Of a stretch of 36,006 nt of DNA, positions 13,128 through 30,555 are shown one piece after another. Made by a program: the position numbers and the translations under genes. A model generated the notes under the pieces. The model saw nothing but the letters and a program-made list of their open reading frames with translations, ran no database searches and was not told the DNA's origin. Within the stretch, counting starts at the first letter, position 1; each line of letters starts with the position of its first letter. The stretch comes from an uncultured Caulobacterales bacterium (GTDB lineage: Bacteria > Pseudomonadota > Alphaproteobacteria > Caulobacterales > Maricaulaceae): the NCBI GenBank assembly GCA_937927825.1, contig CALFWV010000196.1, positions 1 through 36,006 of the forward strand, given 5' to 3'.

Positions 13128-13940
13128 TCAGGCGGCCGGTTTGCGCGGAACCATCTTCAATTCATATTCGGCCAAATCGCCAAATTTAATCGTCGATTTC
13201 GTGCCCACGTGAGATTGATGCACGCCCGTTATCGCGCCGCTGGAAATTAAACACGTCTCCGGCAAGTCGATTTTCCCTTTTAAGCTGATGAAGTGATTCA
13301 GGATAAATCGCAGCGCGCCCAATGGTCCGTTTTCTCCTAAATTTGGCGTTGCACGGCCAATCTCGACATCATCAATGGTCAACACGACATCTATTTTCGA
13401 CAAATCCTCCAAGATAGACAGCGGCGCTTCCGGTCCCAGAACCACACCCGCATTATTACCAAGATCGGAAATGATAGAGCCCGGCCCCAAGTCATTGACC
13501 AAGAGGTTTGGCGAGCTGGCAATCTCTGCGCCCAAATGAACGCGGGAAATAAAGGCATGTGTCTCTTCGACAGTTTCGAGTGGCTTATCTAATTTGTCCA
13601 AATCTTTGAGGACAAAAACAAGCTCTGCCTCATACGCCGCGAAGCCGCCTTCAAAGACCGTAACTTCAAGCGAGTCGCCCGTTTTAACTGTATAGCGTTG
13701 GTCAGCGAACATCGGTCCGGCCAGCCAATTTGTCGGGAATTGCGCGCGCCATTTCTCCGGAACACCGCCGACTTTAAACCCGATGAGATCCGAGTCCCAT
13801 TTAGATATCGCATCCATCTGCACGGCATAGGCCTGGTCTAATGTTTGCGGTATATCCGCTGGAAATCCTTTTATCGGCTGACAGGCTCGGCGCGCGAAAA
13901 GGACGGCATCCGAAATTGGTTTTGCATTAAAATTTTTCAT
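13128..13940 (-). CDS. Fumarylacetoacetase-fold hydratase/dehydratase (2-keto-4-pentenoate hydratase-like)
   Basis: This 270-residue protein resembles the MhpD/2-keto-4-pentenoate hydratase branch of the FAH superfamily. It has IGFKVGG (53-59), a metal-binding ExE in YEAELVFVL (Glu104, Glu106), a further acidic ligand near 'HLGAEIASS', and the late 'LISSGAITGVHQSHVG' segment where hydratases carry SG..TG. The FAH fold also includes 2-keto-3-deoxy-sugar-acid dehydratases and diketo-acid hydrolases, so action on a 2-keto-3-deoxy acid derived from alginate is plausible. It is the third gene of the PL6-PL17 operon, 32 nt after PL17. It is not a standard member of alginate loci and its substrate is unknown. 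Confidence 0.85.
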   Translation of the reverse strand: MKNFNAKPISDAVLFARRACQPIKGFPADIPQTLDQAYAVQMDAISKWDSDLIGFKVGGVPEKWRAQFPTNWLAGPMFADQRYTVKTGDSLEVTVFEGGFAAYEAELVFVLKDLDKLDKPLETVEETHAFISRVHLGAEIASSPNLLVNDLGPGSIISDLGNNAGVVLGPEAPLSILEDLSKIDVVLTIDDVEIGRATPNLGENGPLGALRFILNHFISLKGKIDLPETCLISSGAITGVHQSHVGTKSTIKFGDLAEYELKMVPRKPAA

Positions 13941-13972: not shown

Positions 13973-16159
13973 TTATTTCTGTGCCGCAAGATGCGTGTCA
14001 GAATGAAAAAGTTTGAAGGGCCCCGTCCAACTCATCGTTTTTCCATTGACGTCAACACTATGTGTTCCGTCCGGATTATCTTCTGCACCCAAACCGAGGC
14101 CGACAGTCTCGCCAGCTTTCGTTTCAATCAAGATAAATTCGGCGGCGCCGCTCTCAAAATGAGAGACGGATTTCACCTGACTGTAACTTCCAATCGTATA
14201 TTCGGCGGTTGGGTTATAATCTCCATGGGGCTCAATAATCGACGCAAAAGAAACACCGCCGGTGGTCTTTGCGCGGAGCATAAATCCAGGCTCAGGTTTC
14301 AAGCTGAAATTCGGATCATTCGCGCCAATCTGTGTGAAGACAATTTTAGTGTTCTCCGGAACAGAAGATGTGAGGGAATAAAATTTCTGGTCCAGCAGCC
14401 AAGTGACTTGCGATATCTCGTTCACAGGGTCAGCTTCCGCGACTTTCCAAAGATACTGATAACCATTTTTTGTGCCCAAGGGTGAGCGCGACAAAGGGTC
14501 GGCCTGAAGCTCAAAATTGGTGTCAATCAAATGACCATTATAATGAAACGGCAAATCATAACTATGCGTGCCGTCTGCGTGCCCCTCGACAAGATCAATA
14601 ATGATGGGGCCGGAGAAGGCGGCGTCTTCAATCATTGCGACGGTCCGGCCAATCCGAACATCGTCATAAGCCGTTGAGATTTCCGCAGAGGTCCCCTTCA
14701 ATCCATCCTCATTGACGAAGCGCCCTAATGTCGGTGCATGTTGATTTCCAATGCGCACGTCCCCGTTAAAGTGGCTGGTTTCATCAACGACTAGCGCATT
14801 ATGCGCGACGGTTTGTTTAGCGTATTTATTATTTTCTGGCAGATAATGCCCGCCATATTTGGCTTCAATATTCAAGAAACGCGCGGCGCCATAATCCCGC
14901 AAAATTTCGTGTCCCGCATCATAGACAAGGATGCCCATCTTATCGAAATGCCCGTGGCCAAGACCTTGCGATGTATTTTTCGCAACCAAAACCAAGCCAT
15001 TCGGATCGGCCGAAGCCCGGAGAATATCGAGCGCACCTTGGTCGCCGTTTTGACCGTCACCCATACGCATAGACTTATAGTCAAATGGTGTCGCTTTTCC
15101 GGCCGCCAGGTCTTGAGACACCTTCCGGCTCTCGGGCGTCAGAACAAAGGTATCTTGTTCTGCCGCAATGGACAGCAAGCCGGTATCCCCCGTGAGATCA
15201 TAGACAATCGCAACGGCGTGGACCAGCTCATCCGTTCGAATACCTTTTTCTTTAATGGCATCATTAATAGGAAAGAAAAGTCCGCCATAAGCTTGATGAA
15301 TTAATCCGTAGGTCGCTTTTTTTAAAATGCCGTCGCGTTTTTCGAAAATCTTCTGTTCCGGATTATTTTTCTCAACGGCTTGAGCAAAGATGACGAATGG
15401 CTTGAGCGCGAAGCGGTGATAATAAGGGCCTTCATTATAATATCCATCCGGCGAGAAGAGGACGTCCATTTGCTTGAGGAAGCCCGCCTCCCCGGATTTA
15501 TCCAACCCCATCAAGGCCTGCTCGACATAGTCTTCATCACCAATGGCATAGCCCGTCAGGCCGACCGCTGCGGTTGCCCATGTCCCGTGATTATGGACCT
15601 TGTTAAATGTCTCTGGCGCCCCGACGGATAAGAAATCGGCCATATTACGGAGGAGGTCCGTTTCAATTTTCTCTCTTTCATCCTCTGACAATGTCTCTTT
15701 GATTGCACTATAGGTTTGAGAGATATTCAGCAGGAACATGCTTTCATTTAAATTTTGCCAGAACATTCGCCCGGGAGATTGTTCTTTCTTGGCCGGATGT
15801 AAGTCCCACTGCGGATAGACCTCCGCATAATCCAGCATAGCTTGGCCGGCGAATTCAGCATATTTCTTTTCGCCGGTCAGTTTATAGAGTTGGCCAACAT
15901 CATAGAGCATAAACCCATTCGCTTTGTGCGTTTCATGGGTATATCCGCCGCCCGGATCTTTTGGCACGGGGATGGTGAGAGGCGCTGCCATGGCGACATC
16001 CAATTTCGCCTGAGCCATCTTCAAAGTTTTATCAAACCCCGAAACAGATTGAGAGGATTTATATGTGTTTGTCATTTGGGACGGCGCATCCGAAGCCGTC
16101 TGCTGCCCACAGGCAGCGAGACTGAAAGCGGCTGTCATCAGAAGAAAAGACCGTATCAT
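13973..16159 (-). CDS. PL17 oligoalginate lyase (lipoprotein)
   Basis: This 728-residue protein carries a lipoprotein signal (MIRSFLLMTAAFSLAAC, lipid-attachment Cys17). An (alpha/alpha) toroid domain (about 40-360) is followed by a heparinase II/III-like beta-sandwich domain (about 370-720). Candidate catalytic residues match PL17 exolyases such as Alg17C: Asn190-His191 in KVHNHGTW, Tyr246/Tyr247 in NEGPYYHR, and the His pair in GLGHGHFDK (402, 404). PL17 enzymes release unsaturated monouronate from the ends of alginate oligosaccharides, which rearranges to DEH. Length fits the family. Its ATG overlaps the stop of the PL6 gene (ATGA), so the endo and exo enzymes are translationally coupled. 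Location is probably the periplasm or inner leaflet of the outer membrane. Confidence 0.93.
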   Translation of the reverse strand: MIRSFLLMTAAFSLAACGQQTASDAPSQMTNTYKSSQSVSGFDKTLKMAQAKLDVAMAAPLTIPVPKDPGGGYTHETHKANGFMLYDVGQLYKLTGEKKYAEFAGQAMLDYAEVYPQWDLHPAKKEQSPGRMFWQNLNESMFLLNISQTYSAIKETLSEDEREKIETDLLRNMADFLSVGAPETFNKVHNHGTWATAAVGLTGYAIGDEDYVEQALMGLDKSGEAGFLKQMDVLFSPDGYYNEGPYYHRFALKPFVIFAQAVEKNNPEQKIFEKRDGILKKATYGLIHQAYGGLFFPINDAIKEKGIRTDELVHAVAIVYDLTGDTGLLSIAAEQDTFVLTPESRKVSQDLAAGKATPFDYKSMRMGDGQNGDQGALDILRASADPNGLVLVAKNTSQGLGHGHFDKMGILVYDAGHEILRDYGAARFLNIEAKYGGHYLPENNKYAKQTVAHNALVVDETSHFNGDVRIGNQHAPTLGRFVNEDGLKGTSAEISTAYDDVRIGRTVAMIEDAAFSGPIIIDLVEGHADGTHSYDLPFHYNGHLIDTNFELQADPLSRSPLGTKNGYQYLWKVAEADPVNEISQVTWLLDQKFYSLTSSVPENTKIVFTQIGANDPNFSLKPEPGFMLRAKTTGGVSFASIIEPHGDYNPTAEYTIGSYSQVKSVSHFESGAAEFILIETKAGETVGLGLGAEDNPDGTHSVDVNGKTMSWTGPFKLFHSDTHLAAQK

Positions 16160-18492
16160 TTTTTCATTCCTGTATTGCCGGATAGGATGGCTGTGTTCTT
16201 TTTATCGCTATTAAGCTCGACAATGCGGGGCGTTGCTGACTGGCCGAAATCATTGTTCATTAAACGTGTTTTTGGCTCACCAACTGTATGGTCAATGATA
16301 ACAGGGCGGGCGTCCGTAAAGGTGTTGCCTTCCAAAAGAGTCACTTGCGCACCGTGCAGACGGAAACTCCCGCCCGTCTTATTCCGCTTATTGGCTCCGA
16401 TTTTGTCAAATTTTGAATTTGTGACCGTGACATGCGGACCAAAAGTACTCTCATCCGTGCCGCCCCGGTAAACGTCGGCGATCGTGCCGCCAATGTTTGA
16501 AAATTCACTATCAGAGATCGTTAGGTATTCCGCGGGATAAATGCCGTTATCATCCAATTCTCGATCAAGCCGTAAAACGTGGCCTGTCGCATCAGAGACC
16601 TTCACACGTTCTAAAGTTATATGATTTGCAAAGGTCCCTTTAGCGGCCGAAATGACATCAAAGGAATGGTTGATGTCCAAGTCCTCAAAAACCGTATCCG
16701 CAATTTCCAAACGATAGTTCTTCAACATGGAATATGGGCTCGTCCGAATGACCACATTTCCCGCACTATCGGGCGTATCGGCACCTGAGATTGTCAGACC
16801 CTCGACACGCAGACTGCCGCCGTCTTGAATTTCAAATAAGGCGTCACGTTCATATAAAATTGTCGCGCCGCCGATGCCTTCAAATTTAAGTGTGTTTTTG
16901 ATTGGAATGACGCGGTCCACAGTATGGGTTCCAGCGCGTAAACGGATTGTGTCCCCATCTTTTGCCTGCGCCACCAGCTTTGCAAGGTTTCCTTCACCGG
17001 GGGTTATCATATGGGTTTTCCCGGAACCAAACTCCGTGGCCACACCCGCTTTGGGATAATAGGACGCGCCCGTTTGATCGGCTTGAGTCACGACCAAATC
17101 CTTTGGCGCGCCAGCCGTTACGTCACCAACTGGATAGAGCAGTCCGTTTTTGGCGCGCTGGAGCTTCACGTCTTGAACATTGAATTTATTGGCCAAGGGC
17201 TTCAGCGCCACATTGCTCACATTATCCTTGAAAGTGATACCGGACATATCATCATAGACGGTCATGCTATTGCGGCCCTCCTCATGCACGACCAGATTAT
17301 TTTCCATACGTGTCCCGGTTGGCGGCGCGCTACGCTCGGCATCGCTGCCCGCGCCCAATTGAATGTTATCACTATTGATGAGGGAATTATTCGTAATGAC
17401 AGAATCGATAACCGGGTCATATCGATTGATTGGTCCGTTTGGAACGCCGTTCATAACAACCAGAGCGCCGCCAAAACGCGACCCGGTGAGGCCCTCCATA
17501 TAATTATCGCGGACGGTCTGGCGCGCATTGATAACGCGGAAGCCGCCTGTATGGTCTTCGCCTTCCCCTAAGAAAACATTGCGTTCAATCAAGCTATCAT
17601 TCCCGTGGCGTAAGGTCAGCGTGCCGCGAGATTTGTAAAATGTGTTATTGCGGAAAACATTCCCGCCGGATTTGGAGGACACAATTTCAACTTCACCATC
17701 ACAGCGGTCAAAGTAATTATTCTCAACCAGGGTGAAACTATTACTTCGAGAATAGTGGCTGGTCCCGACTCGGAGTGTCTCGCCGCCGTTTGATCCCAAA
17801 ATCGGGCGCGGGCCAAAATAATTATGGTCAATACGGTGTTTGTTTTCGCGGCTTTCCTCAGTATCCATTCGGACGGCCAAGGTGACTCCCCGATTACGCT
17901 TATTAACCAAGGTATTGTGATCGAACCGATTGTTTTTGCCATAAATCATGACCCAGAAATCAGCGGATGTCCGCTCCGTCGGATTATAGTCATCAATCAC
18001 CACGTTGTGGACGCGGGAGTTATTTGCGAGATCGCCTTTGGTGCGGCGGAAGGAGATGACTTCACGGGTTGGTGTAAATCCATCTGTAAAAACGAGGCCT
18101 GATATATCCAACCATTCTCCGGAAAGGCGAAGATTGGATTGCCCCGTGAGCAAAACCTTCCCGGGTGTTTCGGCGCTCAAACGGATAGGGGCGTCTTCGG
18201 TCCCTTTACCGGAAAATAGGATTTCAAAATCCTCCCAGCGGCCGTTTGCCAAAACGATGTGATCTCCAGGTTGGAGAGATTTAACGGCTTCCGCATATTC
18301 TTGCTGAGTCGAGACCAAGACCTGTCCCTCCTCCAATGTGGTTGATTGCACGGTTTTTTCAGGTGACGTCTCGGTTGTTGCTGGCGCGCATCCATAGAGC
18401 GCGGAAGACATCGAAAGCGCAGAGGCCATCCCAATAAATGCGAGCCGGCGACGCGCTGCGCGTGATCCAAAAAAAGATGTTTGCTGTGCCAA
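16156..18492 (-). CDS. PL6 alginate lyase, two beta-helix domains (lipoprotein)
   Basis: This roughly 778-residue PL6 polysaccharide lyase has two parallel beta-helix domains (about 55-440 and 480-770), like the two-domain lyase AlyGC. The catalytic Lys/Arg pair is visible as Lys274 in VSSKSGGN and Arg295 in LTLRHGN, 21 residues apart as in AlyGC (K220/R241) and chondroitinase B (K250/R271). The signal has RRR, a hydrophobic stretch and a lipobox LYGC (Cys35). No suitable ATG exists upstream. I chose TTG at 18492 because AGGGGA stands 6 nt before it; a TTG at 18498 is the alternative. The enzyme cleaves beta-D-mannuronate/alginate by beta-elimination and is first in the operon with PL17 and the hydratase. 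Confidence 0.92.
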   Translation of the reverse strand: MAQQTSFFGSRAARRRLAFIGMASALSMSSALYGCAPATTETSPEKTVQSTTLEEGQVLVSTQQEYAEAVKSLQPGDHIVLANGRWEDFEILFSGKGTEDAPIRLSAETPGKVLLTGQSNLRLSGEWLDISGLVFTDGFTPTREVISFRRTKGDLANNSRVHNVVIDDYNPTERTSADFWVMIYGKNNRFDHNTLVNKRNRGVTLAVRMDTEESRENKHRIDHNYFGPRPILGSNGGETLRVGTSHYSRSNSFTLVENNYFDRCDGEVEIVSSKSGGNVFRNNTFYKSRGTLTLRHGNDSLIERNVFLGEGEDHTGGFRVINARQTVRDNYMEGLTGSRFGGALVVMNGVPNGPINRYDPVIDSVITNNSLINSDNIQLGAGSDAERSAPPTGTRMENNLVVHEEGRNSMTVYDDMSGITFKDNVSNVALKPLANKFNVQDVKLQRAKNGLLYPVGDVTAGAPKDLVVTQADQTGASYYPKAGVATEFGSGKTHMITPGEGNLAKLVAQAKDGDTIRLRAGTHTVDRVIPIKNTLKFEGIGGATILYERDALFEIQDGGSLRVEGLTISGADTPDSAGNVVIRTSPYSMLKNYRLEIADTVFEDLDINHSFDVISAAKGTFANHITLERVKVSDATGHVLRLDRELDDNGIYPAEYLTISDSEFSNIGGTIADVYRGGTDESTFGPHVTVTNSKFDKIGANKRNKTGGSFRLHGAQVTLLEGNTFTDARPVIIDHTVGEPKTRLMNNDFGQSATPRIVELNSDKKNTAILSGNTGMKK

Positions 18493-18585
18493 AATCAATC
18501 CCCTGTCGTAACAGAACCGCCCGCCTCCTTTTTGGAGTCGTTATGCGATGAAGCAGATGTTGTTAAGCACGACATATGGCGAACA

Positions 18586-18622
18586 TGTCAACCAATACTT
18601 CGAACCAATTTAGGAAATTGGT
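18586..18622 (-). promoter_or_regulatory. PL6-operon promoter: inverted-repeat operator 12 nt ahead of TTGACA
   Basis: The palindrome ACCAATTTAGGAAATTGGT (plus strand, 18604-18622) has two perfect 8-nt arms around 3 nt. Reading the minus strand, 12 nt separate it from TTGACA (18591-18586), a consensus -35; a further ATTGG half-site fills that gap. The same operator, spacing and -35 occur at both receptor genes. The probable binder is the GntR regulator encoded just upstream. Confidence 0.75.
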
Positions 18623-18635
18623 CTAATGCCAGAGT

Positions 18636-19385
18636 TTACAGCAGCTGCTGAGACATTGTGTAGCGGGACCGGCTCTCAGAAGCTTTGCGCTGGACCTCTT
18701 TATAGGCCTGCTCTTCAGATTCAGTGAGTAGCGCATCAATCAGGCGCGAAAAATGCGCCCGCATGGCCAAACGCGCCCCGACGGAGTCGCGTCGCATGAG
18801 CGCTGCGAGGATGGCTTCATGTTCATCTTCACGATCGGTATTTTCATCTTTTGTGCAGGCCGTCTCATAAACCTTTTGCAGCTGAGCGGCCTCGGTGCGC
18901 ATTTTCCACAAACTATCGACAACAAATAAAATGGCGTGGTTTTTGGTTGAGCGCGCAATCGTCAGATGAAACTCCGCATCGGCTTCTTCAGCCGTCAGTT
19001 CATCTTTCACCTTACCGTTCATGATATCAATTAAATGCTGAAGGTGCTCTAATTCTTGATCCGTAATCATAGAAGCCGCCAAGGCGGCGGATTCGCCTTC
19101 GTATAAAGCGCGGGCTTCGGTCAATTCAAAGGGTCCAACCTTAGGCAAACCATAAACGGGCAAATTTGTTTGATCGAGTACATAGACGCCTGAGCCAACT
19201 TTAATCTCGACACGGCCCTGGGCCTGTAGCGCGATTTCAGCCTCTCGAATGGAAACGCGGCTGACGCCAAAACGCTTGGCGAGCTCACGCTCACCCGGCA
19301 GACGGGATCCCGGCGGGAAGACGCCGGAGTCAATCATCTCCAGTAATTTATTCGCAACCGTATGATAGAGTCTTTGCTCAGACAT
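18636..19385 (-). CDS. FadR-subfamily GntR transcriptional regulator of the alginate locus
   Basis: This 249-residue protein has an N-terminal winged helix with the classic GntR pattern 'LPGERELAKRFGVSRVSIREAEIALQAQGRVEIKVGSGVYV' (read in pieces from about residue 24 to 66) and an all-helical FCD effector domain (about 88-230). The FCD domain carries the metal/effector residues around DAEFHLTIARS. Such FadR-type regulators bind sugar acids (UxuR, ExuR, LldR relatives). AAGGGG precedes the ATG by 9 nt. The gene lies between the receptor and the PL6 operon on the same strand. Operators near 18604, 23008 and 27887, and the big palindrome at 19449, make it the best candidate for the locus regulator. 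The effector is probably a DEH- or KDG-like acid, which is inference. Confidence 0.9.
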   Translation of the reverse strand: MSEQRLYHTVANKLLEMIDSGVFPPGSRLPGERELAKRFGVSRVSIREAEIALQAQGRVEIKVGSGVYVLDQTNLPVYGLPKVGPFELTEARALYEGESAALAASMITDQELEHLQHLIDIMNGKVKDELTAEEADAEFHLTIARSTKNHAILFVVDSLWKMRTEAAQLQKVYETACTKDENTDREDEHEAILAALMRRDSVGARLAMRAHFSRLIDALLTESEEQAYKEVQRKASESRSRYTMSQQLL

Positions 19386-19448
19386 AATTCGACCCCTTCA
19401 GCCTTTACGCTACTGCAGAAGCGTTATGACGAAGACACCAAAGGATGT

Positions 19449-19496
19449 CTATACCGATTCAAAGGTGACAGCGCTGTCCGTTTGAAATCGGTATAG
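19449..19496. repeat. 48-bp nested palindrome ahead of the GntR gene
   Basis: CTATACCGATT(C)AAA at 19449 pairs with TTTGAAATCGGTATAG ending 19496, and the centre contains a perfect 12-nt palindrome GACAGCGCTGTC. It lies between the receptor stop and the GntR start. No T-run follows on either strand, so a plain terminator is unlikely. The arms ACCGATTTCAAA resemble the ACCAATTTCAAA arm of the 27887 operator, suggesting a split autoregulatory site or an mRNA stem. Confidence 0.7.
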
Positions 19497-19531
19497 CTCA
19501 CATATTCAGGCCCTCGCCATACGAAATGCGC

Positions 19532-22500
19532 TTAGAAGCGCCCGCGAACACCGAAGAAGATACGGGGACCGTAATCGTTAATCTCGTAACGATCATCATC
19601 AACAAATGCGAATTGCTCTTTAGGCTCGCTGCCAATATTGATAATTTCAGCCGATAGACGGAAATTATCGGTCAATGTGTAGGATGCACGGGCCTCCCAG
19701 ACACCCACTTCGCCGACGTAGCGAAGTCGCGTACCATCGGAGGTAAAGGGCTGGAAATACTGATCACGATATTTGTAGTTGACGGCCAGATCGAGACCAC
19801 CAATTCCGTAATAGACTTGTGCCGAAAGTGTATTTTGAGACAATCCGGGCAGGCCGGCCGGCGCAATAATGCCGGAGGCGATTTGCGTGGTTGTTCCATT
19901 TGCATTGGTAATAAACCGATCGCCATAACGGCTATCTTCAAATTCGAAATTTGAATCGACGTAGTTATAGCTGAGTTTCGCACCCAAACCGCTCAGCAAA
20001 CCCGGAAGATATGTAAAGCCATGCGAGGCGGTGACCTCGATACCGAAGAGATTGCTGGTGTCATCACTCGTTTGAGTCACTGTTACATCCCGGTCGAGGG
20101 CTTGGCCATTGACGTCAAAGGTCTCTGTCTGAACAACAGTTTCAAACCCGCCTTGGAACGCTTTGTAATATCCGCCGACAGCTAAAATGGTGTCCTGATT
20201 TGGGTACCATTCAAAGCTGGCGTCATAATTCCAGGACATGAGCGGATCAAAGCTTGGATTGCCTGTTCCGGAAATATTCCCCAACAAATCATTTAATGAC
20301 GTCGCACCTTCGTCTTCGTCGAAGTTAAAATTGAAGGTCCGGCTAAAGCCCATATCTTGCAAATCAGGACGCGACATAGCGCGGAAGACGCCCAGCCTGA
20401 CAATCTTGTCGTCGGCTACATCCATAATCAAATTCGCGCTGGGAAGAAGGCGTGTATATGAATGCTTTTCCTGCACTTGCTGTACGCCGCCCGGACGCGA
20501 GAAGGAGAAGGTTCCATCGGCCCCCTCAGTAATCGTGAAGGCTTCACGGTAGCCGGTGCCCGTCACATCTGTTTGCACCAAACGGGCGCCGATATTACCG
20601 GAAATTGGAAGGGTTCCGTCCAGCATTCCGGAGTAATTTGTCATCAAATAAGCCGTTGATGTCGACTCACGGACATCAACCGTATTTGTACGCTCTTCAA
20701 TCAATTCCGGCGTTTCTGTACTCAACGTCGGAATAATACCGATTTCATCGCCCGGCAGATCATTGATGCCAGGGTCAAGAAGTTGCGCGTTAATTTGATC
20801 CAATATTCCGTTGATCAGATTGGTGGACGTATCCGTAACACAACGAGCGTCAAAGGTTGCGAAAGAGTTTGTCCCAACGCTTTGTAAGTTACCATCAGAG
20901 TCAAAGAAGGTATTGGTGACCAAGTCGGACCCACCCCGCAAACTTCCGAGGAAATCATCTTCGACGAAATCATTTTCAAACGACCCGTCTTCATTTATCG
21001 TTCCATTGAAACAGGCTTGGTTCACCTGGCTAATGAAACCGATGTAGGTTTCATCCAGACCTGTTGCAGAATCGAAGACTTGGCGACTTTGAATTTCAAG
21101 GTCTCGGTTATCTTCAATTTCGAACGTCGTCCGGCCCGTTGAAAAATCAAACGGGTCATCGGAATCAATACCTCCGGCCAAGCTTAGATAATCACGTTGG
21201 GCAAGACGGACGCCGCCCTCTAAATTGTTAAAAAATCCGTCGCCGAGATCATAATTAAAATCTAAACGACCCGCAACAACCTCATCTGTCCGCTCGAGAT
21301 CATTATCGATACGAACCCGGAGGCGATCCACATAGTTTCCGGGGTCATTGACATCAAATTCTTCGCTGTGAAGGGTATAGAGAGGCACATCACTATTGCG
21401 CTGATCAAACTCAATCACCGGTGAATTATTGGATTGAATTCGGAATTCAAACGCACGCTCATTCCGTTCTGTTTTAGAATAAGCGAGGTCAGCGGCAACT
21501 GACAACCGATCAGACACTTCATAATCGACATTCAAACCCGCGCCAAGATAGGTTTCTTTTCGCTGGTAGTCACCGCCCTGAATTTCAATCGAGCTATCGG
21601 TGAAGGACCGCAAAACACCGCCTTGTGGTGTGGTGACTAAAGTGTCCAAAGTCGTCGTATTTACAGTCTCGCCATTTTGAATAATGTTCAAGTCCGTATC
21701 ATTGCGGCGTCCGCCGTTAAACGTCAGATCATTTCTCTGCTCTGATTGAATCCGTTCGGACCACTGCGCATCTAAATTAATGTCGACACGATCATTCGGC
21801 GCCCATTGAACGGAGCCGAAAATTGCATCGCGCTGATCACGCGTATCATTTTGGCGGAAGTGACGCTGAGACGGCGCGAAGATAAACGGAGTATCGAGGT
21901 CGGCACGGATGCCATTCGCATCTAAAGATGTATCGAATCCCTCGACAGTGCTGCCGCGGCCAAAGGCTTCTAGCTCCTCGTCCGACGGATCTCTGTCGCC
22001 GCTAAGGTCAAACCCTTCCAAATTGACGTCATCACAATCGTCATCGCCGCGGCGTTCCGTTTCAGGTTGGTTGGAGAACCCTGTGACGGTTCCGCCGGTT
22101 GTCGGTTCAATATAGCGCGCATTACCGTTTGTTATTAAGCAGGCAGGACGGGAGTTGCTTGTCGGGCCGGTTTGGCGGGCTTCGGCCTCCGGCTGGGAAA
22201 TATCGCTGGTTTGCACCCCGATCGAAAGTCCGATGTCCCCGCCGCCAAGCTCGAACTGGTCCGTATAACTGCCGGTCAGGCGGTAGCCTAAATCGCCGGC
22301 TTCGGTGTCATTTTGGTTCAATTGATCCGGGTTTACATTCCCTTTGGCTTCGAACTGAATTCGGCGCTTTCCATAATCAAGAGGCCTAACTGTCTCAATT
22401 TGGATTTGACCCGCGACGCCGCCTTCAATTTGGCTCGCATTTTGCGTCTTAAAGACGGCCAATTTATTGACGAGTTCAGACGGGAATTGCGAGAAATTCA

Positions 22501-22912
22501 CCGACCTGTCGCCGGACCCATTTGTTGCGACACGGCCGTTGACAACGGTTGAGGAAAGGTACGGACCAAGCCCACGAATTGACACTTCGGTCGCGCCGCC
22601 ATTTTCACGATGAGAGGCAACGCCCGTAATATTTTCGAGAGCTTCGCCAATGGACAAAGCCGGAATGTCACCGATTTCATCGGCGGAAAGCCCGTCTACA
22701 ATTTGCATGTTTTCACGCTTGAGCGCGATGGCGTCCTGAATAACTTGACGCGACCCTGTAACAATAATTTCGTCCTCTACCGGCGCTTGTTGCGCTAAAA
22801 CCGGCTGCGCCAACAAACTCAGCGCCAAAACAGACGCGGAGGCGGCAAAGCCTTTTTTTAAATCTGTATGGATGCGCGAAAGCTCCACACCCTGAGGTGA
22901 AGTATTGGCCAT
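19532..22912 (-). CDS. TonB-dependent receptor 1 (probable alginate-oligosaccharide importer)
   Basis: This is a 1126-residue outer-membrane receptor. After an N-terminal signal (cleavage near VLAQQA, about residue 41) comes a TonB-box-like stretch EDEIIVTGSR. A plug domain (about 55-180) follows with 'ALENITGVASHRENGGATEVSIRGLGPYL' signatures, then a 22-strand barrel ending in a C-terminal Phe (FFGVRGRF). It belongs to the long Caulobacter/Xanthomonas-type receptor class often linked to glycan uptake. AAGGGGA precedes the ATG. Its promoter carries the shared CCAAT/ATTGG operator, and it stands between the GntR gene and the reductase. It probably moves alginate oligomers into the periplasm using TonB energy. 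The substrate is inferred only from context. Confidence 0.92.
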   Translation of the reverse strand: MANTSPQGVELSRIHTDLKKGFAASASVLALSLLAQPVLAQQAPVEDEIIVTGSRQVIQDAIALKRENMQIVDGLSADEIGDIPALSIGEALENITGVASHRENGGATEVSIRGLGPYLSSTVVNGRVATNGSGDRSVNFSQFPSELVNKLAVFKTQNASQIEGGVAGQIQIETVRPLDYGKRRIQFEAKGNVNPDQLNQNDTEAGDLGYRLTGSYTDQFELGGGDIGLSIGVQTSDISQPEAEARQTGPTSNSRPACLITNGNARYIEPTTGGTVTGFSNQPETERRGDDDCDDVNLEGFDLSGDRDPSDEELEAFGRGSTVEGFDTSLDANGIRADLDTPFIFAPSQRHFRQNDTRDQRDAIFGSVQWAPNDRVDINLDAQWSERIQSEQRNDLTFNGGRRNDTDLNIIQNGETVNTTTLDTLVTTPQGGVLRSFTDSSIEIQGGDYQRKETYLGAGLNVDYEVSDRLSVAADLAYSKTERNERAFEFRIQSNNSPVIEFDQRNSDVPLYTLHSEEFDVNDPGNYVDRLRVRIDNDLERTDEVVAGRLDFNYDLGDGFFNNLEGGVRLAQRDYLSLAGGIDSDDPFDFSTGRTTFEIEDNRDLEIQSRQVFDSATGLDETYIGFISQVNQACFNGTINEDGSFENDFVEDDFLGSLRGGSDLVTNTFFDSDGNLQSVGTNSFATFDARCVTDTSTNLINGILDQINAQLLDPGINDLPGDEIGIIPTLSTETPELIEERTNTVDVRESTSTAYLMTNYSGMLDGTLPISGNIGARLVQTDVTGTGYREAFTITEGADGTFSFSRPGGVQQVQEKHSYTRLLPSANLIMDVADDKIVRLGVFRAMSRPDLQDMGFSRTFNFNFDEDEGATSLNDLLGNISGTGNPSFDPLMSWNYDASFEWYPNQDTILAVGGYYKAFQGGFETVVQTETFDVNGQALDRDVTVTQTSDDTSNLFGIEVTASHGFTYLPGLLSGLGAKLSYNYVDSNFEFEDSRYGDRFITNANGTTTQIASGIIAPAGLPGLSQNTLSAQVYYGIGGLDLAVNYKYRDQYFQPFTSDGTRLRYVGEVGVWEARASYTLTDNFRLSAEIINIGSEPKEQFAFVDDDRYEINDYGPRIFFGVRGRF

Positions 22913-22989
22913 TTTGATATCCCCTTATGATGTCAAATCTTGTGTATATTTTTTTGATTAGGGCCAGCTTGAACCAAGAGGACTAACCA

Positions 22990-23026
22990 CGTCAACTAAA
23001 TAATTGGACCAATTTCTTCTTATTGG
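22990..23026 (-). promoter_or_regulatory. TonB receptor 1 promoter: CCAAT-N8-ATTGG operator 12 nt ahead of TTGACG
   Basis: On the plus strand ACCAAT (23008-23013), 8 nt and ATTGG (23022-23026) form the operator, overlapped by a second palindrome AATTGG-A-CCAATT (23002-23014). Reading the minus strand, 12 nt separate the operator from TTGACG (22995-22990), exactly the spacing seen at the PL6 and receptor 2 promoters. It lies about 78 nt upstream of the receptor start. Confidence 0.7.
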
Positions 23027-23302
23027 CCTATCCACTAAGCGTTTGTGTCGCGTTATATTGGGGAGATTTTCCACAGGCGAGCACGCCGAATGTTTTGGGG
23101 TATTCGGACCTCATCACAGGCGATTAGGTGCGCAAGGGTTAGGATAGTACAAATTTCGTAGGTGCAAAACGCTGGTTGTTGACGCTGTTTATCGAGCCGA
23201 AAGGTTCCGAAGCTATTGTTTACATTTCCGAATTTCTAATTTGTCTGTGTCAATCCACTTAATATTTATGAATTCGGTTTTCCCGCTTTATCTGCAATCT
23301 TC

Positions 23303-23361
23303 ATTGGTATAGATAATTCGGGAGTATTGACCCAATCGTTTGGGCCAAAATGTATACCAAT
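23303..23361 (+). promoter_or_regulatory. Reductase promoter with split ATTGGTATA / TATACCAAT inverted repeat
   Basis: ATTGGTATA at 23303-23311 and its exact reverse complement TATACCAAT at 23353-23361 flank a TTGACC -35 candidate (23327-23332). About 18 nt later a -10-like TGTATA overlaps the second arm. The arms are 50 bp apart centre to centre, near five helical turns, which would suit looping by a dimeric regulator. The half-sites match those of the other locus operators. Confidence 0.55.
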
Positions 23362-23379
23362 TTTCTTGGAGTTAGAATT

Positions 23380-24261
23380 ATGTCGAAACCAACAATTGGT
23401 TTTATCGGTCTGGGCCTCATGGGCGGCAATATGGTCGAGAACCTACAAAAGCGTGGCTTTGAAGTCATCGTTATGGACTTGAACCAGGATGCGGTTGACG
23501 CGGTTTTGGCGCGGGGGAATGCCTCTCAAGCCAGCTCCCCAAAAGAACTCGCCGAGAAAAGTGACATTGTTCAATTTTGTCTGACCACATCTGCAGTGGT
23601 TGAGAAAATTGTTTATGGGGATAACGGCGTACTTGCCGGTATCAGGGAAGGGTCCGTTTTGATTGACTTCGGAACGTCCATTCCGGCGTCCACTCAAAAA
23701 ATTGGCGCTGACCTCGCGAAAAAAGGCGTGGGCATGATTGATGCGCCGCTGGGGCGGACACCGGCCCATGCAAAAGACGGATTGCTGAACATTATGGCAG
23801 CTGGCGACAAAGCCACATTCGACAAATATGAGCCGATGCTAAAGGAACAAGGCGAGAATGTTTTCTATCTCGGCAAGCTGGGCGCGGGCCATACGACCAA
23901 GCTCATCAATAACTTTATGGGCATGACAACAGTAACGGCGATGTCACAGGCCTTTGCCGCAGCGGAACTGGCCGGCGTTGATCGTCAGCAGCTTTATGAC
24001 ATCATGTCATCTGGCCCGTCCAATTCACCTTTTATGAAATTCTGTAAGAACTATGCCGTCGACGGCGTGAGCGATTTGGGCTTCTCTATCAATAATGCCA
24101 ATAAGGACTTGGGCTATTTCGCTCAGATGGTATCCGATCTCGGATCCAAATCCCTTGTCGCGGAAGCGACATCGAAAAGCCTGCAAGCCGCTGTGGATGC
24201 GGGCATGGGCGATGGCAATGTGCCGGAAATCTACGATTACTTTGTAAAACTGAAGAAGTAA
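23380..24261 (+). CDS. 3-hydroxyisobutyrate-dehydrogenase-family reductase, probable DEH reductase
   Basis: This 293-residue beta-hydroxyacid dehydrogenase has a Rossmann motif GFIGLGLMGGNM (7-18), the family signature 'DAPLGRTPAHAKDG' (121-134), catalytic Lys174 and Asn178 in GHTTKLINNFMG, and an all-alpha C-terminal domain. The family includes tartronate semialdehyde reductase and 3-hydroxyisobutyrate dehydrogenase. A member of this family serves as DEH reductase in Vibrio splendidus alginate metabolism, as I recall. The locus has no other reductase, so reduction of 4-deoxy-5-hexoseulose uronate to KDG is the best guess. The start at 23380 follows TTGGAG; an in-frame ATG at 23350 overlaps promoter elements. 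Cofactor preference is uncertain; strand 2 ends in VMDLN. Confidence 0.85.
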   Translation: MSKPTIGFIGLGLMGGNMVENLQKRGFEVIVMDLNQDAVDAVLARGNASQASSPKELAEKSDIVQFCLTTSAVVEKIVYGDNGVLAGIREGSVLIDFGTSIPASTQKIGADLAKKGVGMIDAPLGRTPAHAKDGLLNIMAAGDKATFDKYEPMLKEQGENVFYLGKLGAGHTTKLINNFMGMTTVTAMSQAFAAAELAGVDRQQLYDIMSSGPSNSPFMKFCKNYAVDGVSDLGFSINNANKDLGYFAQMVSDLGSKSLVAEATSKSLQAAVDAGMGDGNVPEIYDYFVKLKK

Positions 24262-24278
24262 CGTCCCGCCTTAATAAA

Positions 24279-24307
24279 GATCAGTGCGCGGACACAGCGC
24301 ACTGATC
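24279..24307 (+). terminator. Hairpin after the reductase gene
   Basis: A perfect 11-bp stem GATCAGTGCGC / GCGCACTGATC with a 7-nt loop starts 17 nt after the reductase stop. The usual T-run is missing (AATTGGTC follows), so it may be a weak or Rho-assisted terminator or an mRNA 3'-end stabiliser. Confidence 0.55.
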
Positions 24308-24762
24308 AATTGGTCAAGCATAGACCCTTTAAAACCCTGCACTCAGATCAAAACCTGATCTATTGATTTACACGTCTCCCAGCTCCTCCAAAACTGCGGC
24401 GCATGTCTTTGGTTTGCCCCGAGCCTTAAGCTAAGCTTATCCTCCGTTTTATGTCCGAAGCCCCGATTTTGGCTGTCGACATTTTATGGACGAACCTCTG
24501 AGCGATGCGTCCTCGTCAGGGCATCAATTCGGCAATCGGCGCCGTGGGCAGCGGATAGGCTGCACATTTCAAAAAATCACACGCCACAAAGTCTAGAACC
24601 GAGCCTCCTGCTGTCCCGACGGTCAAGCCGGGAGGATGAAGATGAAGGATTAAGACGCAAAGATATCGCCGCACAAGTGTGACCAAGGCGAGTGGGCCAA
24701 GGGCGAGTGGGCCAAGGGCGAATTTTCCCGCATCATAAGATAACCCATTATGATGCGCACAC
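24308..24762. other. Gene-free interval between reductase and receptor 2
   Basis: About 455 nt lie between convergent genes. An 82-codon open frame on the minus strand (24516-24764) has no recognisable protein features, and part of it is tandem repeat, so I do not call it. AGATCA-N5-TGATCT (24345-24361) is a short hairpin. Apart from the 15-bp repeat at 24681-24725 I see nothing else. Confidence 0.5.
24681..24725. repeat. 15-bp tandem repeat, three units
   Basis: Units begin at 24681, 24696 and 24711. The middle one reads GCCAAGGGCGAGTGG; the first differs by a few bases and the third keeps its first 11 bases. It is a small minisatellite in a gene-free interval. Confidence 0.8.
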
Positions 24763-24792
24763 AAAAAAACGCCCCACCGAAGTGAGGCGTTT
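24763..24792 (-). terminator. Rho-independent terminator of TonB receptor 2
   Basis: On the minus strand a stem AACGCCTCAC / GTGGGGCGTT with a TTCG tetraloop (24792-24767) is followed by a run of T residues (complement of A at 24763-24769). One mismatch interrupts the stem. It begins 30 nt after the receptor stop. Confidence 0.92.
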
Positions 24793-24821
24793 CAAGTTTC
24801 TTTCATCGACGAGGGAACGTC

Positions 24822-27797
24822 TTAGAAAGTATAGCTTCCACCGAAGATAACTCGGCGATCCGGATATCCTACGAAACATGTTGGCCCGGTCTCGGCCACA
24901 CAACGTTGGATGATTCTTGATTCCGTTAAGTTAACGGCTTCAACACCAATGTTGAAATTATCAGTGACATCGTAGTTGATGCTCGCATTAAGCTGTCCTC
25001 TGTCCAACGTATTGACCGGGAAACTGAATGTAGAGCTGCCTGATGTATTTGCTCCGCCGCCGAAATCTTGCGTCCGGAAGCCTTCACGCCATGTATAACG
25101 TACACGGGCCGAAAGACCATATTTTTCGTAATAACCTGTGAGGTTGTATGCATTCTTCGAGAAATCCAGCAGTCCTCGTGGAATGCTGACGTCACCAAGA
25201 ACATTCAGACCACGGCCAGATGTCGTATCTACAACTGATCCACCAGAAAAATCTTGGTATGTGTAGTTGGCAATGACACCGAAGCCAGATGCAAATCCGA
25301 GCATATCTTCAAAGGCAGAGAGATCCGATTGGAAAGCGACCTCAATACCCTGCTGTGTGGTTGTCTCAGGGTCGTTCCCAGGTTGTGTCGTGTCTACACA
25401 AAGGCCAAGACGGTTTGGATCCCCAAGCTGGTTAGGTACAACAATCGGGTTGAAAATACCACCGCCTGTACAAGCTGGGTCTGTATCCCGCGCAAAACCG
25501 CCGGTCGTTACAAATCCCTCGGGTGATGGTCCTGTAATAATCTCCGCCCCTTCAAAATTTGTCCCAAAGACATTTGTTCGCCTCTTATTGAAATAGCCAA
25601 TTGTAAAGACCGAGGCCGGAGCAAAATACCAGTCAACGGAAACGTCGAATGATTTAAAGTCTTCCGGCTCTAGACCGGGGTTACCCAATCTAACAGCGGA
25701 GTTCTCACTATCGTCAAACGAGAAGCCCGTCGTAAGTTGATTAAAGTCTGGACGCAAAATATCCTCGCTATAGGCGGCGCGTAAGACAATATCTTCGCGC
25801 GGCGTCACGCTCAAGTTTGCCCGCGGCAATAGGAAATTATAGCTGCCGGATGTGGTCACTAGCTCTCGTGTGCCGCCAATATCTGGACTAAAAGCAGTGG
25901 AGTCGATATCGGTTTCCACCCACCTTGCGCCAACGTTACCCTTGACAATGCCATGCTCAAAATTGGCTTGCGCATATATCGCTGTTGTGTCTTCCTCTAC
26001 TCTGAAGAAAGCATTTTGGTCTGACTGGACATTTAGAATATCCGGTGTCGGGTCATGTGCGATAACGGCAGCTTGCAGCGTATTGATAACGCGCTGAGGA
26101 TCAGAAAAGGCAAGATCAGGATCGACAAGCAGGAAATCGCTGACAAATAAATTCCGTCCATCTGCTGCATCGAAGTTATTCGGCCCTGCAACAAGAATAT
26201 CAGCGAAAAGAGAGCCGTTCGGGCTGTCGACAAGCTGACTAAATCCGCCGACACGGTCGCCAATGTCTTCGAATTCACTGGATGCGCTATTTCTGCGTAT
26301 ACCGGCATCAACCGATTTAATGAATGGTGCGAATTCTGACACATCATAAGACAAGTCTAGGCGAATGGCATTATCTTCATTTTCTGTCGTATTCCGACCG
26401 ACACGGAAGTCATCCAAAACAACGTTGTTTGGGTTGGTCAAATCGGCGACAGCAGGCGCGAAGGGTGAGTCAAAATTGATACCGAAAGACAATGTGTCAT
26501 CGGACAAATCATAAATGAAGGGCACACAGTTATCGTTACTTGTGCCGTCCAATGGACAGTTCGGGTTAATGAAGTTCAGTGTTGAACTCAAATTTGGGTT
26601 TACAGTTTCAGACGTCGAAGAAGCTGCCTCTAACTTGGCAGTAAAGTTACCTTTTTCCCATTCGCCACCAATGCTGATGAGACGCGTATCTGTCACGCGG
26701 GCACCTGTGTCGCTTGAGAAACGCAAGTTTGGATCATCATCATCATTCGCGAGATTTGGCTCCAAGGTACCTGTTAGAGCGGCCGGAAACTCGCACGGAC
26801 CAACGCCAAAGTCGACCGTCTCAAAGGATGTTGGAATGCTGAGTTGGCGCAACGAACTCACGCCTGAAGCTTGAATCCGGTAAGAATCCTGAGCCCGCTG
26901 CTGGTCATTGTAAATACCATCGACATAAAGTCTAAGGTTGTCAGTTGGTCTAGCCTCTACAGTACCTGCGAGGTTGATTGTCTCAAAATCAAAATTCTCT
27001 TGCTCTTGGACCAGGAACTGAATGCCGAGAAACTCAGCAGGGTTTGCGCCCGGAGGAGAGGCAACATTATCGCGATCAGTTCGTGGACGGAAAGAGACAG
27101 CTTCTTGCTTTGTATAGCTACCGCTTAGGACGACCCCGAACTCTTGGCCACGTGGATTCTCCCACTTTTTGCCTAAAGCACCTGATACACGTGGCTGGAG
27201 GCCTTCTGTGCTCAGGCTGCTGTCTTCAGCTTGGACGCGGATGGACGCCAGCGTGTCGGTGAGATCCAATGGACGAATGGTTCTAAGGTTAATTGTACCG
27301 CCAACAGACCCCTCTGTCGTGCTAGCCTCAGGTGATTTTATCACTTCTACAGCCGAAATAATGGAAGCGTTCACATCTTCGAAGCCAATACCGCCACGAC
27401 CGGAACCTGATCCAACTGTGGAGACACCATTAATTTCAACGCGGTTGTCGTCGGTACCCCTAATTTGAACGCCAGTACCGATACCAGCCGTCCGTGTGAT
27501 TTGAACACCTGTGATATTTTCCAAAACTTCCGCGAGGTTTTGGTCAGGTAGCTTGCCGATATCTTCCGCGCGGATAACCTCAATCAAGCTGTCTGCGTTA
27601 CGTTTCTCAATCAAGGCCGTTTCCAGCGCTTGACGAATACCTGTTGCAATAACAACGTCGCCATCGTCGGAATCTTGCGCGAAGGCTGAAGGGGCCATCG
27701 CTAGCATGGAAACGCTGGCGCCGAGGAGGAGCGAGCCTTTTAGCCACGCCATCTTGTGTGTGCCGGAGTCGGCAGAACGGTGAGTCATAATCTTCAT
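24822..27797 (-). CDS. TonB-dependent receptor 2
   Basis: This 991-residue outer-membrane receptor starts with a signal peptide (MAWLKGSLLLGASV..., cleavage after SAFA near 40). Then come TonB-box-like VVIATGIRQA, a plug (about 60-190; 'LPDQNLAEVLENITGVQI', 'GVQIRGTDDNRVEINGV', 'GGTINLRTIRPLDL') and a barrel ending in a C-terminal Phe (GGSYTF). It is of the same long receptor class as receptor 1 but clearly a different protein, so the two may take different alginate oligomers. A first ATG at 27797 lies very close to AGGGGA; the ATG at 27788 has better spacing and may be the true start. The promoter carries the shared operator and a consensus TTGACA. Confidence 0.92.
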   Translation of the reverse strand: MKIMTHRSADSGTHKMAWLKGSLLLGASVSMLAMAPSAFAQDSDDGDVVIATGIRQALETALIEKRNADSLIEVIRAEDIGKLPDQNLAEVLENITGVQITRTAGIGTGVQIRGTDDNRVEINGVSTVGSGSGRGGIGFEDVNASIISAVEVIKSPEASTTEGSVGGTINLRTIRPLDLTDTLASIRVQAEDSSLSTEGLQPRVSGALGKKWENPRGQEFGVVLSGSYTKQEAVSFRPRTDRDNVASPPGANPAEFLGIQFLVQEQENFDFETINLAGTVEARPTDNLRLYVDGIYNDQQRAQDSYRIQASGVSSLRQLSIPTSFETVDFGVGPCEFPAALTGTLEPNLANDDDDPNLRFSSDTGARVTDTRLISIGGEWEKGNFTAKLEAASSTSETVNPNLSSTLNFINPNCPLDGTSNDNCVPFIYDLSDDTLSFGINFDSPFAPAVADLTNPNNVVLDDFRVGRNTTENEDNAIRLDLSYDVSEFAPFIKSVDAGIRRNSASSEFEDIGDRVGGFSQLVDSPNGSLFADILVAGPNNFDAADGRNLFVSDFLLVDPDLAFSDPQRVINTLQAAVIAHDPTPDILNVQSDQNAFFRVEEDTTAIYAQANFEHGIVKGNVGARWVETDIDSTAFSPDIGGTRELVTTSGSYNFLLPRANLSVTPREDIVLRAAYSEDILRPDFNQLTTGFSFDDSENSAVRLGNPGLEPEDFKSFDVSVDWYFAPASVFTIGYFNKRRTNVFGTNFEGAEIITGPSPEGFVTTGGFARDTDPACTGGGIFNPIVVPNQLGDPNRLGLCVDTTQPGNDPETTTQQGIEVAFQSDLSAFEDMLGFASGFGVIANYTYQDFSGGSVVDTTSGRGLNVLGDVSIPRGLLDFSKNAYNLTGYYEKYGLSARVRYTWREGFRTQDFGGGANTSGSSTFSFPVNTLDRGQLNASINYDVTDNFNIGVEAVNLTESRIIQRCVAETGPTCFVGYPDRRVIFGGSYTF

Positions 27798-27868
27798 TTC
27801 CCCTGAAGTTAGATTTGGAGTTTTTATTTTACTTTTGCCAATTGGGAATGAACCAATGATTTAGAGTA

Positions 27869-27915
27869 TGTCAAGCCAATAAACGTACCAATTTTTTGAA
27901 ATTGGTAATACCAAT
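27869..27915 (-). promoter_or_regulatory. TonB receptor 2 promoter: double operator 12 nt ahead of TTGACA
   Basis: Plus-strand ACCAATTTTTTGAAATTGGT (27887-27906, 8-nt perfect arms) overlaps ATTGGTAATACCAAT (27901-27915), a 15-nt palindrome close to the TTGGTATACCAA core recalled for UxuR/ExuR-type regulators. Minus-strand TTGACA (27874-27869) follows after 12 nt. Extra half-sites CCAAT at 27853 and CCAATTGG at 27838-27845 lie downstream towards the gene. Confidence 0.75.
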
Positions 27916-30226: not shown

Positions 30227-30555
30227 GCCATCCAATCAGTTGTGCAAATATTCACTATCGGGAAAAAACGGAAAAACAACGTTAAATAAGCATCGGCAAA
30301 TATGCATCGGCCATTTTGCGGAGTCAGGAAAGTCTGGAGAGATTCACACATAGCCCCGGCCTTGGGTTCGGATTTCCCAAATACATTCAATTTTAAAGTG
30401 CAAAAATTGACTTTTCAAAAATTATGATGAACAAAATGCCTTTGATAATGGTTACTAAGCCCCTTCTCAGGGCGTCTAATATTGAGATTGGAGGTCGTTC
30501 TACAGCGTTTAGAGCCTCAGACTCCCCAAAATATAAGTAAGCTCAAGGATAATAA

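Follow-up and report, generated by a model that had tools for sequence, protein, structure and literature searches.

The stretch of DNA analysed here (the window, 36,006 nt) is the whole of contig C196 from the draft genome (2.55 Mb, 92% complete) of an uncultured Caulobacterales bacterium, and it carries a locus for alginate use in which three promoters share an array of ATTGGT half-sites held in register with the -35 element. One of these promoters precedes lyase genes of the PL6 and PL17 types, which overlap by 4 nt and presumably lie on one transcript, the other two precede genes for TonB-dependent receptors, and between them is encoded a regulator of the GntR family with an FCD domain, referred to below simply as GntR. 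Profile searches identified further minus-strand genes, for a PfkB kinase resembling 2-keto-3-deoxygluconate (KDG) kinase and for 2-keto-3-deoxy-6-phosphogluconate (KDPG) aldolase. The plus strand encodes an IclR regulator and a reductase of the 6PGDH type, perhaps acting on 4-deoxy-L-erythro-5-hexoseulose uronate (DEH). The genes on which the argument turns are:

13973..16159, minus strand: PL17-type oligoalginate lyase (profile searches)
16156..18498, minus strand: PL6-type lyase, putative target gene (Pfam family Chondroitinas_B, which we take to be PL6)
18636..19385, minus strand: GntR/FCD regulator, putative binder of the array (Pfam GntR and FCD matches; co-occurrence with the array)
19532..22912, minus strand: TonB-dependent receptor 1, putative target gene (Pfam)
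24822..27797, minus strand: TonB-dependent receptor 2, putative target gene (profile searches)

Layout and rarity of the array

An initial annotation of this DNA described three CCAAT-N7/8-ATTGG repeats, each lying 12 nt upstream of TTGAC, as a single design at a constant distance from the -35 in an alginate context, and the sequence bears out the coordinates, the common design and the context (PL6, PL17, KDG kinase, KDPG aldolase and TonB receptors). At PL6 the repeat is ACCAAT-N7-ATTGGT (18604-18622), with a 12-nt gap (18592-18603) to TTGACA (minus strand 18591-18586). At receptor 1, ACCAAT (23008-23013), N8 and ATTGG (23022-23026) form an imperfect copy, the outer base being C, with a 12-nt gap to TTGACG (22995-22990), and at receptor 2 ACCAAT-N8-ATTGGT (27887-27906) is again followed by 12 nt and TTGACA (27874-27869). 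The annotation placed an additional half-site in the gap at PL6 and receptor 2; both are present (CCAAT at 18592 and 27876), but receptor 1 has one too, in the opposite orientation (ATTGG at 23003). Its observation that both orientations overlap at 27901 is also correct, the palindrome ATTGGTAATACCAAT occupying 27901-27915.

The half-sites are numbered here by their typical positions before TTGACA in the window's family, i.e. O1 at about 41 nt (with its ACCAAT partner at -32), O2 at 18 nt and O3 flush with the -35, while O4 lies at +17 in receptor promoters. The elements in the window are:

18563..18568, minus strand: candidate -10 GCTTAA of the PL6-PL17 promoter, 17-nt spacer; weak, 2/6 to TATAAT (the best of three spacers gives 3/6)
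18586..18591, minus strand: -35 TTGACA of the PL6-PL17 promoter, read directly; perfect TTGACA in 21/24 family PL6 promoters with the array
18591..18596, minus strand: O3 half-site ATTGGT, PL6; overlaps the first base of the -35
18604..18609, minus strand: O2 half-site ATTGGT, PL6, read directly
18617..18622, minus strand: O1 right half-site ACCAAT, PL6; the left half is missing at family PL6 promoters
22973..22978, minus strand: O4 half-site CTTGGT (5/6), receptor 1; +17 from the -35 start
22990..22995, minus strand: -35 TTGACG of receptor 1, read directly
23003..23007, minus strand: extra CCAAT half-site, receptor 1; forms ATTGGTCCAAT with O2 on the minus strand
23008..23013, minus strand: O2 half-site ATTGGT, receptor 1, read directly
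23022..23026, minus strand: O1 right half-site CCAAT, receptor 1; left half degenerate
27852..27857, minus strand: O4 half-site ATTGGT, receptor 2; +17 from the -35 start
27869..27874, minus strand: -35 TTGACA of receptor 2, read directly
27876..27880, minus strand: ATTGG half-site, receptor 2; like O3 but not flush, one base upstream of the -35
27887..27892, minus strand: O2 half-site ATTGGT, receptor 2, read directly
27901..27915, minus strand: O1 of receptor 2, a perfect FadR-type palindrome ATTGGT-N3-ACCAAT, the only perfect one in the window (spacers 2 or 3)

Aligned on TTGACA, the family's receptor promoters read ATTGGT-N3-ACCAAT, 7-9 nt, ATTGGT, 11-12 nt and TTGACA, often with ATTGGTTC at +17, and its PL6 promoters read TATACCAATT, a short spacer, AATTGGT and, typically, ATATTGG flush with TTGACA, with GATATT, at the place of the window's candidate -10, following after 17 nt in many genomes. 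The initial annotation took the CCAAT-N-ATTGG repeat for an operator of inverse orientation; such a repeat does exist, but on the sequence it is predicted to be the seam between two FadR-type GntR sites in normal orientation, the right half of one ATTGGT-N3-ACCAAT site and the left half of the next. A single everted operator for one dimer is unlikely: the junction ranges over 7-9 nt, with 8 the usual value at receptors, and in most receptor promoters of the family the left partner makes up an ordinary palindrome, although loci in which the repeat brackets the -35 do preserve its N8 form. The spacing of exactly 12 nt likewise holds in the window genome, but relatives mostly have 11 or 12 nt counted from ATTGGT, and 7-9 nt within the repeat. 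In a paralogous GntR-receptor locus (L066:4300-4400), a tandem repeat of ATTGGTCTAAACTTAAAGGTTGRCA resembles a promoter duplication.

The pattern is rare. CCAATN6-9ATTGG occurs four times in the window against 0.33 expected, a number reached in 0/100 shuffles; the fourth copy, at 5107, lies inside the reading frame 3882-7613 with no TTGAC nearby. Extended to CCAATN6-9ATTGGN11-14TTGAC, the pattern has three matches in the whole 2.55 Mb draft genome, all at the window promoters. The exact form TTGGTNNNACCAN9-11TTGGN12-13TTGAC was matched only by the window genome in samples of 385 genomes of the class and 398 of the phylum, which overlap and hold no other member of the window's family. In a sample of the order outside the family there were 31 matches, compared to 8 for a reversed control pattern, and the five examined (L213, L216-L219) precede one autotransporter, one PL6, two PF05426 lyases and one DUF2891 gene. 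Chance or an AT-rich background is ruled out as the source of the pattern by the shuffles together with the gene-specificity control given below.

Conservation in the family and in more distant relatives

Among 137 genomes of the family, a loose version of the pattern gave 69 matches in 42 genomes, and the reversed control gave 2. A strict form (junction 7-9, ATTGGT, and 12-13 nt counted from ATTGG) gave 53, and these fall in 27/30 genomes whose GntR shares at least 63% identity with that of the window, fragments of GntR genes included, and in 0/107 of the others, which argues for the adjacent FCD-type GntR as the predicted binder, as the initial annotation had proposed. G044, which is among these 27, has its strict match next to a second GntR of 57% identity. 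The three genomes missed are two in which the GntR gene is cut by a contig end (G038, G111) and one (G040) in which the array before receptor 1 has diverged and scores 22/24. Two loose matches in family genomes lacking a close GntR (L214, L215) appear to fall within genes for TonB receptors.

To compare promoters, the array was scored out of 24 as ATTGGT-N3-ACCAAT, N7-9, ATTGGT, N11-13, TTGACA, with a threshold of at least 18. In the family set, comprising the window and 31 loci, it reaches this score upstream of 33/36 receptors and 24/28 PL6 genes (57/64) versus 0/104 other locus genes, and 1/640 shuffled windows. At a score of at least 20/24 it is found in 26/30 family loci, and in none after dinucleotide shuffling, in each of five rounds. 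A grid of spacings peaks at junction 8 and gap 12 (20/30), but the peak is not sharp: an inner spacing of 3 gives 20/30, 4 gives 14 and 0 or 2 gives 10, and in both the family and the distant set, cells beside the peak whose junction and gap sum to 20 are elevated (up to 14/30 and 7/62), since the first site together with the -35 is enough to produce them. Two features outside the scored pattern provide independent support, namely GG flush with TTGACA in 24/24 PL6 and 24/33 receptor promoters with the array, and ATTGGT (at least 5/6) at +17 in 20/33 of these receptor promoters, where no other offset exceeds 2. The perfect upstream palindrome ATTGGT-N3-ACCAAT is present at 23/33 of the receptor promoters and 0/24 of the PL6 promoters, and in the window only at receptor 2.

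More distant conservation was assessed in 62 other named loci whose GntR is about 48-59% identical and which were not used to choose the spacing; this set is not wholly outside the family, as it includes L176 (Maricaulis maris). It derives from 80 named loci, of which 18 (L124-L139, L173, L180) were initially removed as duplicates of loci in the family set, although for two of these, L128 and L129, no matching family contig was found, and both have the array where they can be scored. At a score of at least 18, the array precedes 33/72 receptors and 16/49 PL6 genes (49/121) versus 4/156 other genes and 0/1210 shuffled windows; three gene labels judged false (L142 PL6, L172 TonB-dependent receptor, L203 PL6) are kept in the 49/121, in the tree and in the element counts, and the three loci are dropped from the -10 counts. 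At a score of at least 20/24 it appears in 21/62 loci, with none in any of five rounds of shuffling, and the spacing grid again peaks at junction 8 and gap 12 (17/62).

In the scoring distant promoters the first ATTGGT (at least 5/6) is retained at 31/33 receptors and 13/16 PL6 genes, and receptors have O2 in 20/33 and GG flush with TTGACA in 30/33, while the perfect palindrome is found at 5/33 receptors and 0/16 PL6 genes. The CCAAT half is mostly lost and the first ATTGGT and its distance are kept, and therefore ATTGGT at a fixed distance from TTGACA is the robust long-range feature. Conservation at orthologous promoters, which the initial annotation had set beforehand as its own test, was thus found within the family, but outside it only partly, since the CCAAT half is degenerate there. 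The distant loci with most parts of the array belong to Pontixanthobacter (L152, Erythrobacteraceae), Woeseiaceae (L170, Gammaproteobacteria), an uncultured proteobacterium (L174) and Hyphomonadaceae (L142, where the array faces a contig end and has no gene assigned to it). In a tree built from 90 GntR proteins, the array marks 29/32 rows in the clade of the window, Hyphomonas, Hirschia and Aquisalinus, 21/27 in a mostly Erythrobacter-like clade, 2/9 in a mainly gammaproteobacterial clade and 2/14 in a Xanthomonas-type clade, the last two both probably false.

The GntR protein and related regulators

The window GntR matches both PF00392 (E 1.1e-19; 70.3 bits, cut-off 27) and the FCD domain PF07729 (E 2.6e-19; 70.3 bits, cut-off 24.3). 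Its two best NCBIfam matches are ExuR and UxuR, for which it lies below the curated cut-offs (130.5 of 396 and 104.6 of 442 bits), as it does for NanR (101.2 of 260 bits), so that the hexuronate regulators ExuR and UxuR of E. coli are its kin and not the same protein. Their half-site is of the ATTGGT type, with the core TTGGTATACCAA. FadR contacts DNA through Arg35, Arg45 and Arg49 (Table 1, PMC4494728), which would correspond to the invariant Arg33, Arg43 and Arg47 here if the match of residues 13-67 to 15-69 is ungapped, and the window GntR thus appears to keep the DNA-binding arginines of FadR.

Suvorova, Korostelev and Gelfand (2015, PMC4494728) described operators of the FadR subfamily as a TKGT/ACMA palindrome with a weaker extra half-site at 7-12 nt, and left the role of the extra boxes open. 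A palindrome of the TKGT-N3-ACMA type is present in the window, perfect at receptor 2 and imperfect at receptor 1, and ATTGGT-N3-ACCAAT with a further ATTGGT 7-9 nt away resembles those operators, the junction falling within the 7-12 nt range; the authors also phrase this distance as one measured from the centre of the site, and on that count the box here would start 16 nt away. Unlike the operators as described there, the present array has a fixed register to the -35, with half-sites abutting the -35 or -10, and the main text of that paper makes no mention of alginate. A second precedent is NanR of E. coli, a repressor of which several dimers bind a (GGTATA)3 operator, with an N-terminal extension for cooperativity (PMC8012715). 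It too is a GntR-family protein with repeated GGT-type half-sites at a promoter, but here the spacings are about 23 and 13 bp, the half-sites are not GGTATA throughout, and family receptor promoters have a full palindrome. Both ingredients, a GntR palindrome accompanied by an additional half-site and the binding of several dimers to repeated half-sites, therefore have precedents.

Further parallels come from other regulators of alginate use. AlgO is a GntR repressor. It is encoded as a transcriptional regulator in the alginate cluster of the alphaproteobacterium Sphingomonas sp. A1 (PMC8286568), an organism that uses pit transport, whereas the window locus has TonB receptors. AusR of Zobellia galactanivorans, a flavobacterium, is likewise of the GntR family and represses alginate genes (PMC8286568). 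The open literature searched gave no description of a -35-locked GntR array at alginate loci, nor a regulator-site pair for proteobacterial alginate loci with TonB receptors.

Proposed control of the locus and its wider targets

From the observed array, with its conserved spacing, the genes that follow it and its co-occurrence with GntR, we propose with moderate confidence that the neighbouring FCD-type GntR represses all three promoters through ATTGGT half-sites in register with a sigma-70-like -35, and that DEH or KDG relieves this repression; binding to the array, cooperativity, repression, the inducer and use of the promoters are what we infer. When there is no alginate, GntR dimers would help one another to occupy each array, and those bound at the promoter itself would exclude RNA polymerase by covering the -35 and, at the receptors, the approach to the -10. 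DEH or KDG, as unsaturated uronate products, would bind the FCD domain and release GntR, and PL6-PL17 and both receptors would then open together.

Repression is preferred because half-sites abut promoter elements in the family, because a fair -10 is common at the PL6 promoters of relatives, because ACCAAT-N8-ATTGGT brackets the -35 in eight loci, and because AusR, a GntR-family regulator of alginate genes, is itself a repressor (PMC8286568). A -10 matching at least 4/6 was found at 16/24 and 9/14 of these PL6 promoters (shuffled fractions 0.27 and 0.12), so that no obvious activator would be needed. The bracketing of TTGAC was seen in 8/20 other loci checked, all in the Xanthomonas/Stenotrophomonas clade, 6/14 of which are without a bracketed -35.

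A number of findings weigh against this proposal. In the window GG is flush with the -35 only at PL6, receptor 2 being one base off and receptor 1 having AG, and no -10 candidate at 16-18 nt exceeds 3/6, and therefore the occlusion argument rests more on the relatives than on the window itself. The receptor -10 elements are little better than shuffled (7/33 versus 0.28 and 6/32 versus 0.18), O2 and O3 are 13 bp apart, too close for two full palindromic dimers, and an N-terminal extension of the NanR type is not seen in the window GntR, whose alignment begins at residue 28 of NanR and position 2 of the profile. Of the distant-set genes, 72/121 have no array; where the array does score there, the CCAAT half (at least 5/6) is kept at only 9/33 receptors and 5/16 PL6 genes and GG is flush at only 4/16 PL6 genes. 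The genomes are also related, which the Fisher test of the strict-match association ignores, so that the counts are not independent, and a fixed distance between an upstream site and the -35 would also suit an activator that touches polymerase.

This last point leads to a possible, if somewhat unlikely, explanation, that GntR is an activator or dual regulator which, bound at O1/O2, contacts the alpha C-terminal domain or sigma of RNA polymerase and so sets the spacing, with the downstream half-sites tuning or repressing. The distance from the first ATTGGT to TTGACA is fixed from the window's family to Erythrobacteraceae and Woeseiaceae, and the -10 is weak at receptor promoters and in the window, both of which speak for activation. 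The FadR site at fabA in E. coli adjoins the -35. FadR regulates fabA positively (PMC4537474). The initial annotation had considered activation or looping from the upstream position of the repeat, which now seems less likely, since the family array reaches the promoter itself, with half-sites flush with the -35 and at +17, and since the repeat brackets the -35 in some relatives (the eight loci above). The fair -10 at many relatives' PL6 promoters and the tolerance of 7, 8 or 9 nt in the junction and of 11 or 12 nt in the gap also argue against activation.

A bolder idea, which we regard as quite improbable, would make the -35-locked, multi-dimer array a portable module for controlling alginate uptake and cutting, its register preserved across Alphaproteobacteria and part of the Gammaproteobacteria. 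A single protein would contact RNA polymerase from O1/O2 and obstruct it from O3/O4; receptor promoters would then switch from active repression to activation, and lyase promoters would only be released. If true, an FCD-type GntR protein would have a dual mechanism that differs by promoter class.

It is very unlikely that GntR is a mere neighbour and that the array is bound by another protein, such as the window's IclR/KdgR-like regulator, a response regulator paired with the CHASE histidine kinase or an unlinked factor. GntR is assigned as the binder by co-occurrence, and in two loci from another family of the order (L217, L218) a related motif precedes a lyase with no GntR match in the 13-15 kb fetched. 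Against another binder stand the strict-match association described above and the fit of the half-sites to FadR-subfamily TKGT/ACMA boxes, in which GT and AC stand 3 nt apart (PMC4494728), and the IclR, seen in only 2/32 family loci (many of them cut short), was rejected as a candidate on that ground. That the repeats are merely an AT-rich promoter feature or an inherited flank without regulatory role is scarcely credible given the spacing-specific conservation, near-zero shuffles and gene specificity, even though the family promoters are AT-rich and the genomes related.

Three other genes in the window deserve mention. A 270-aa protein adjoining PL17 (13128-13940) has no Pfam or NCBIfam match, and homologues of 35-78% identity occur in six fetched loci. 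The CHASE-PAS histidine kinase adjoining receptor 2 (28061-30235) has only 23-24% matches in the fetched loci (L070, L176), many of which may stop short of its place. A single reading frame at 3882-7613 fuses ABC-2 permease matches with a peptidase M1 domain.

The array also precedes genes elsewhere and so predicts regulon members in relatives, namely autotransporters, a subunit of transhydrogenase type and additional lyases and receptors. A PL6-like array stands before large autotransporters with a PF03797 beta-domain in three genomes, of which one belongs to another family (L206:6690-9653, L210:1895-4804, L213:6158-9145), and these are possibly alginate-linked surface proteins. A full receptor-class array precedes an AlaDh/PNT gene, resembling the transhydrogenase alpha subunit, in one family genome (G018, L207:4645-5787), which would link redox balance to alginate use. 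The array is further found before a PL6 gene in another family (L216) and before more receptors (L204, L205, L208, L209, L212). Upstream of the PF05426 alginate lyases of L217 (at 5851) and L218 (at 7700), the order is CCAAT, 7-8 nt, ATTGG, 12 nt and TTGAC, and a further CCAAT immediately precedes the -35.

For bacteria of coastal seas, the alginate of brown algae is a major food source, and much of the array spacing recurs across several orders of bacteria, which makes the array a natural experiment on why extra GntR half-sites stay in promoter register, the role of such boxes having been left open by Suvorova et al. (PMC4494728). Seaweed-eating marine bacteria thus seem to control their genes for capturing and cutting alginate through precisely spaced sites, most likely for a single repressor.

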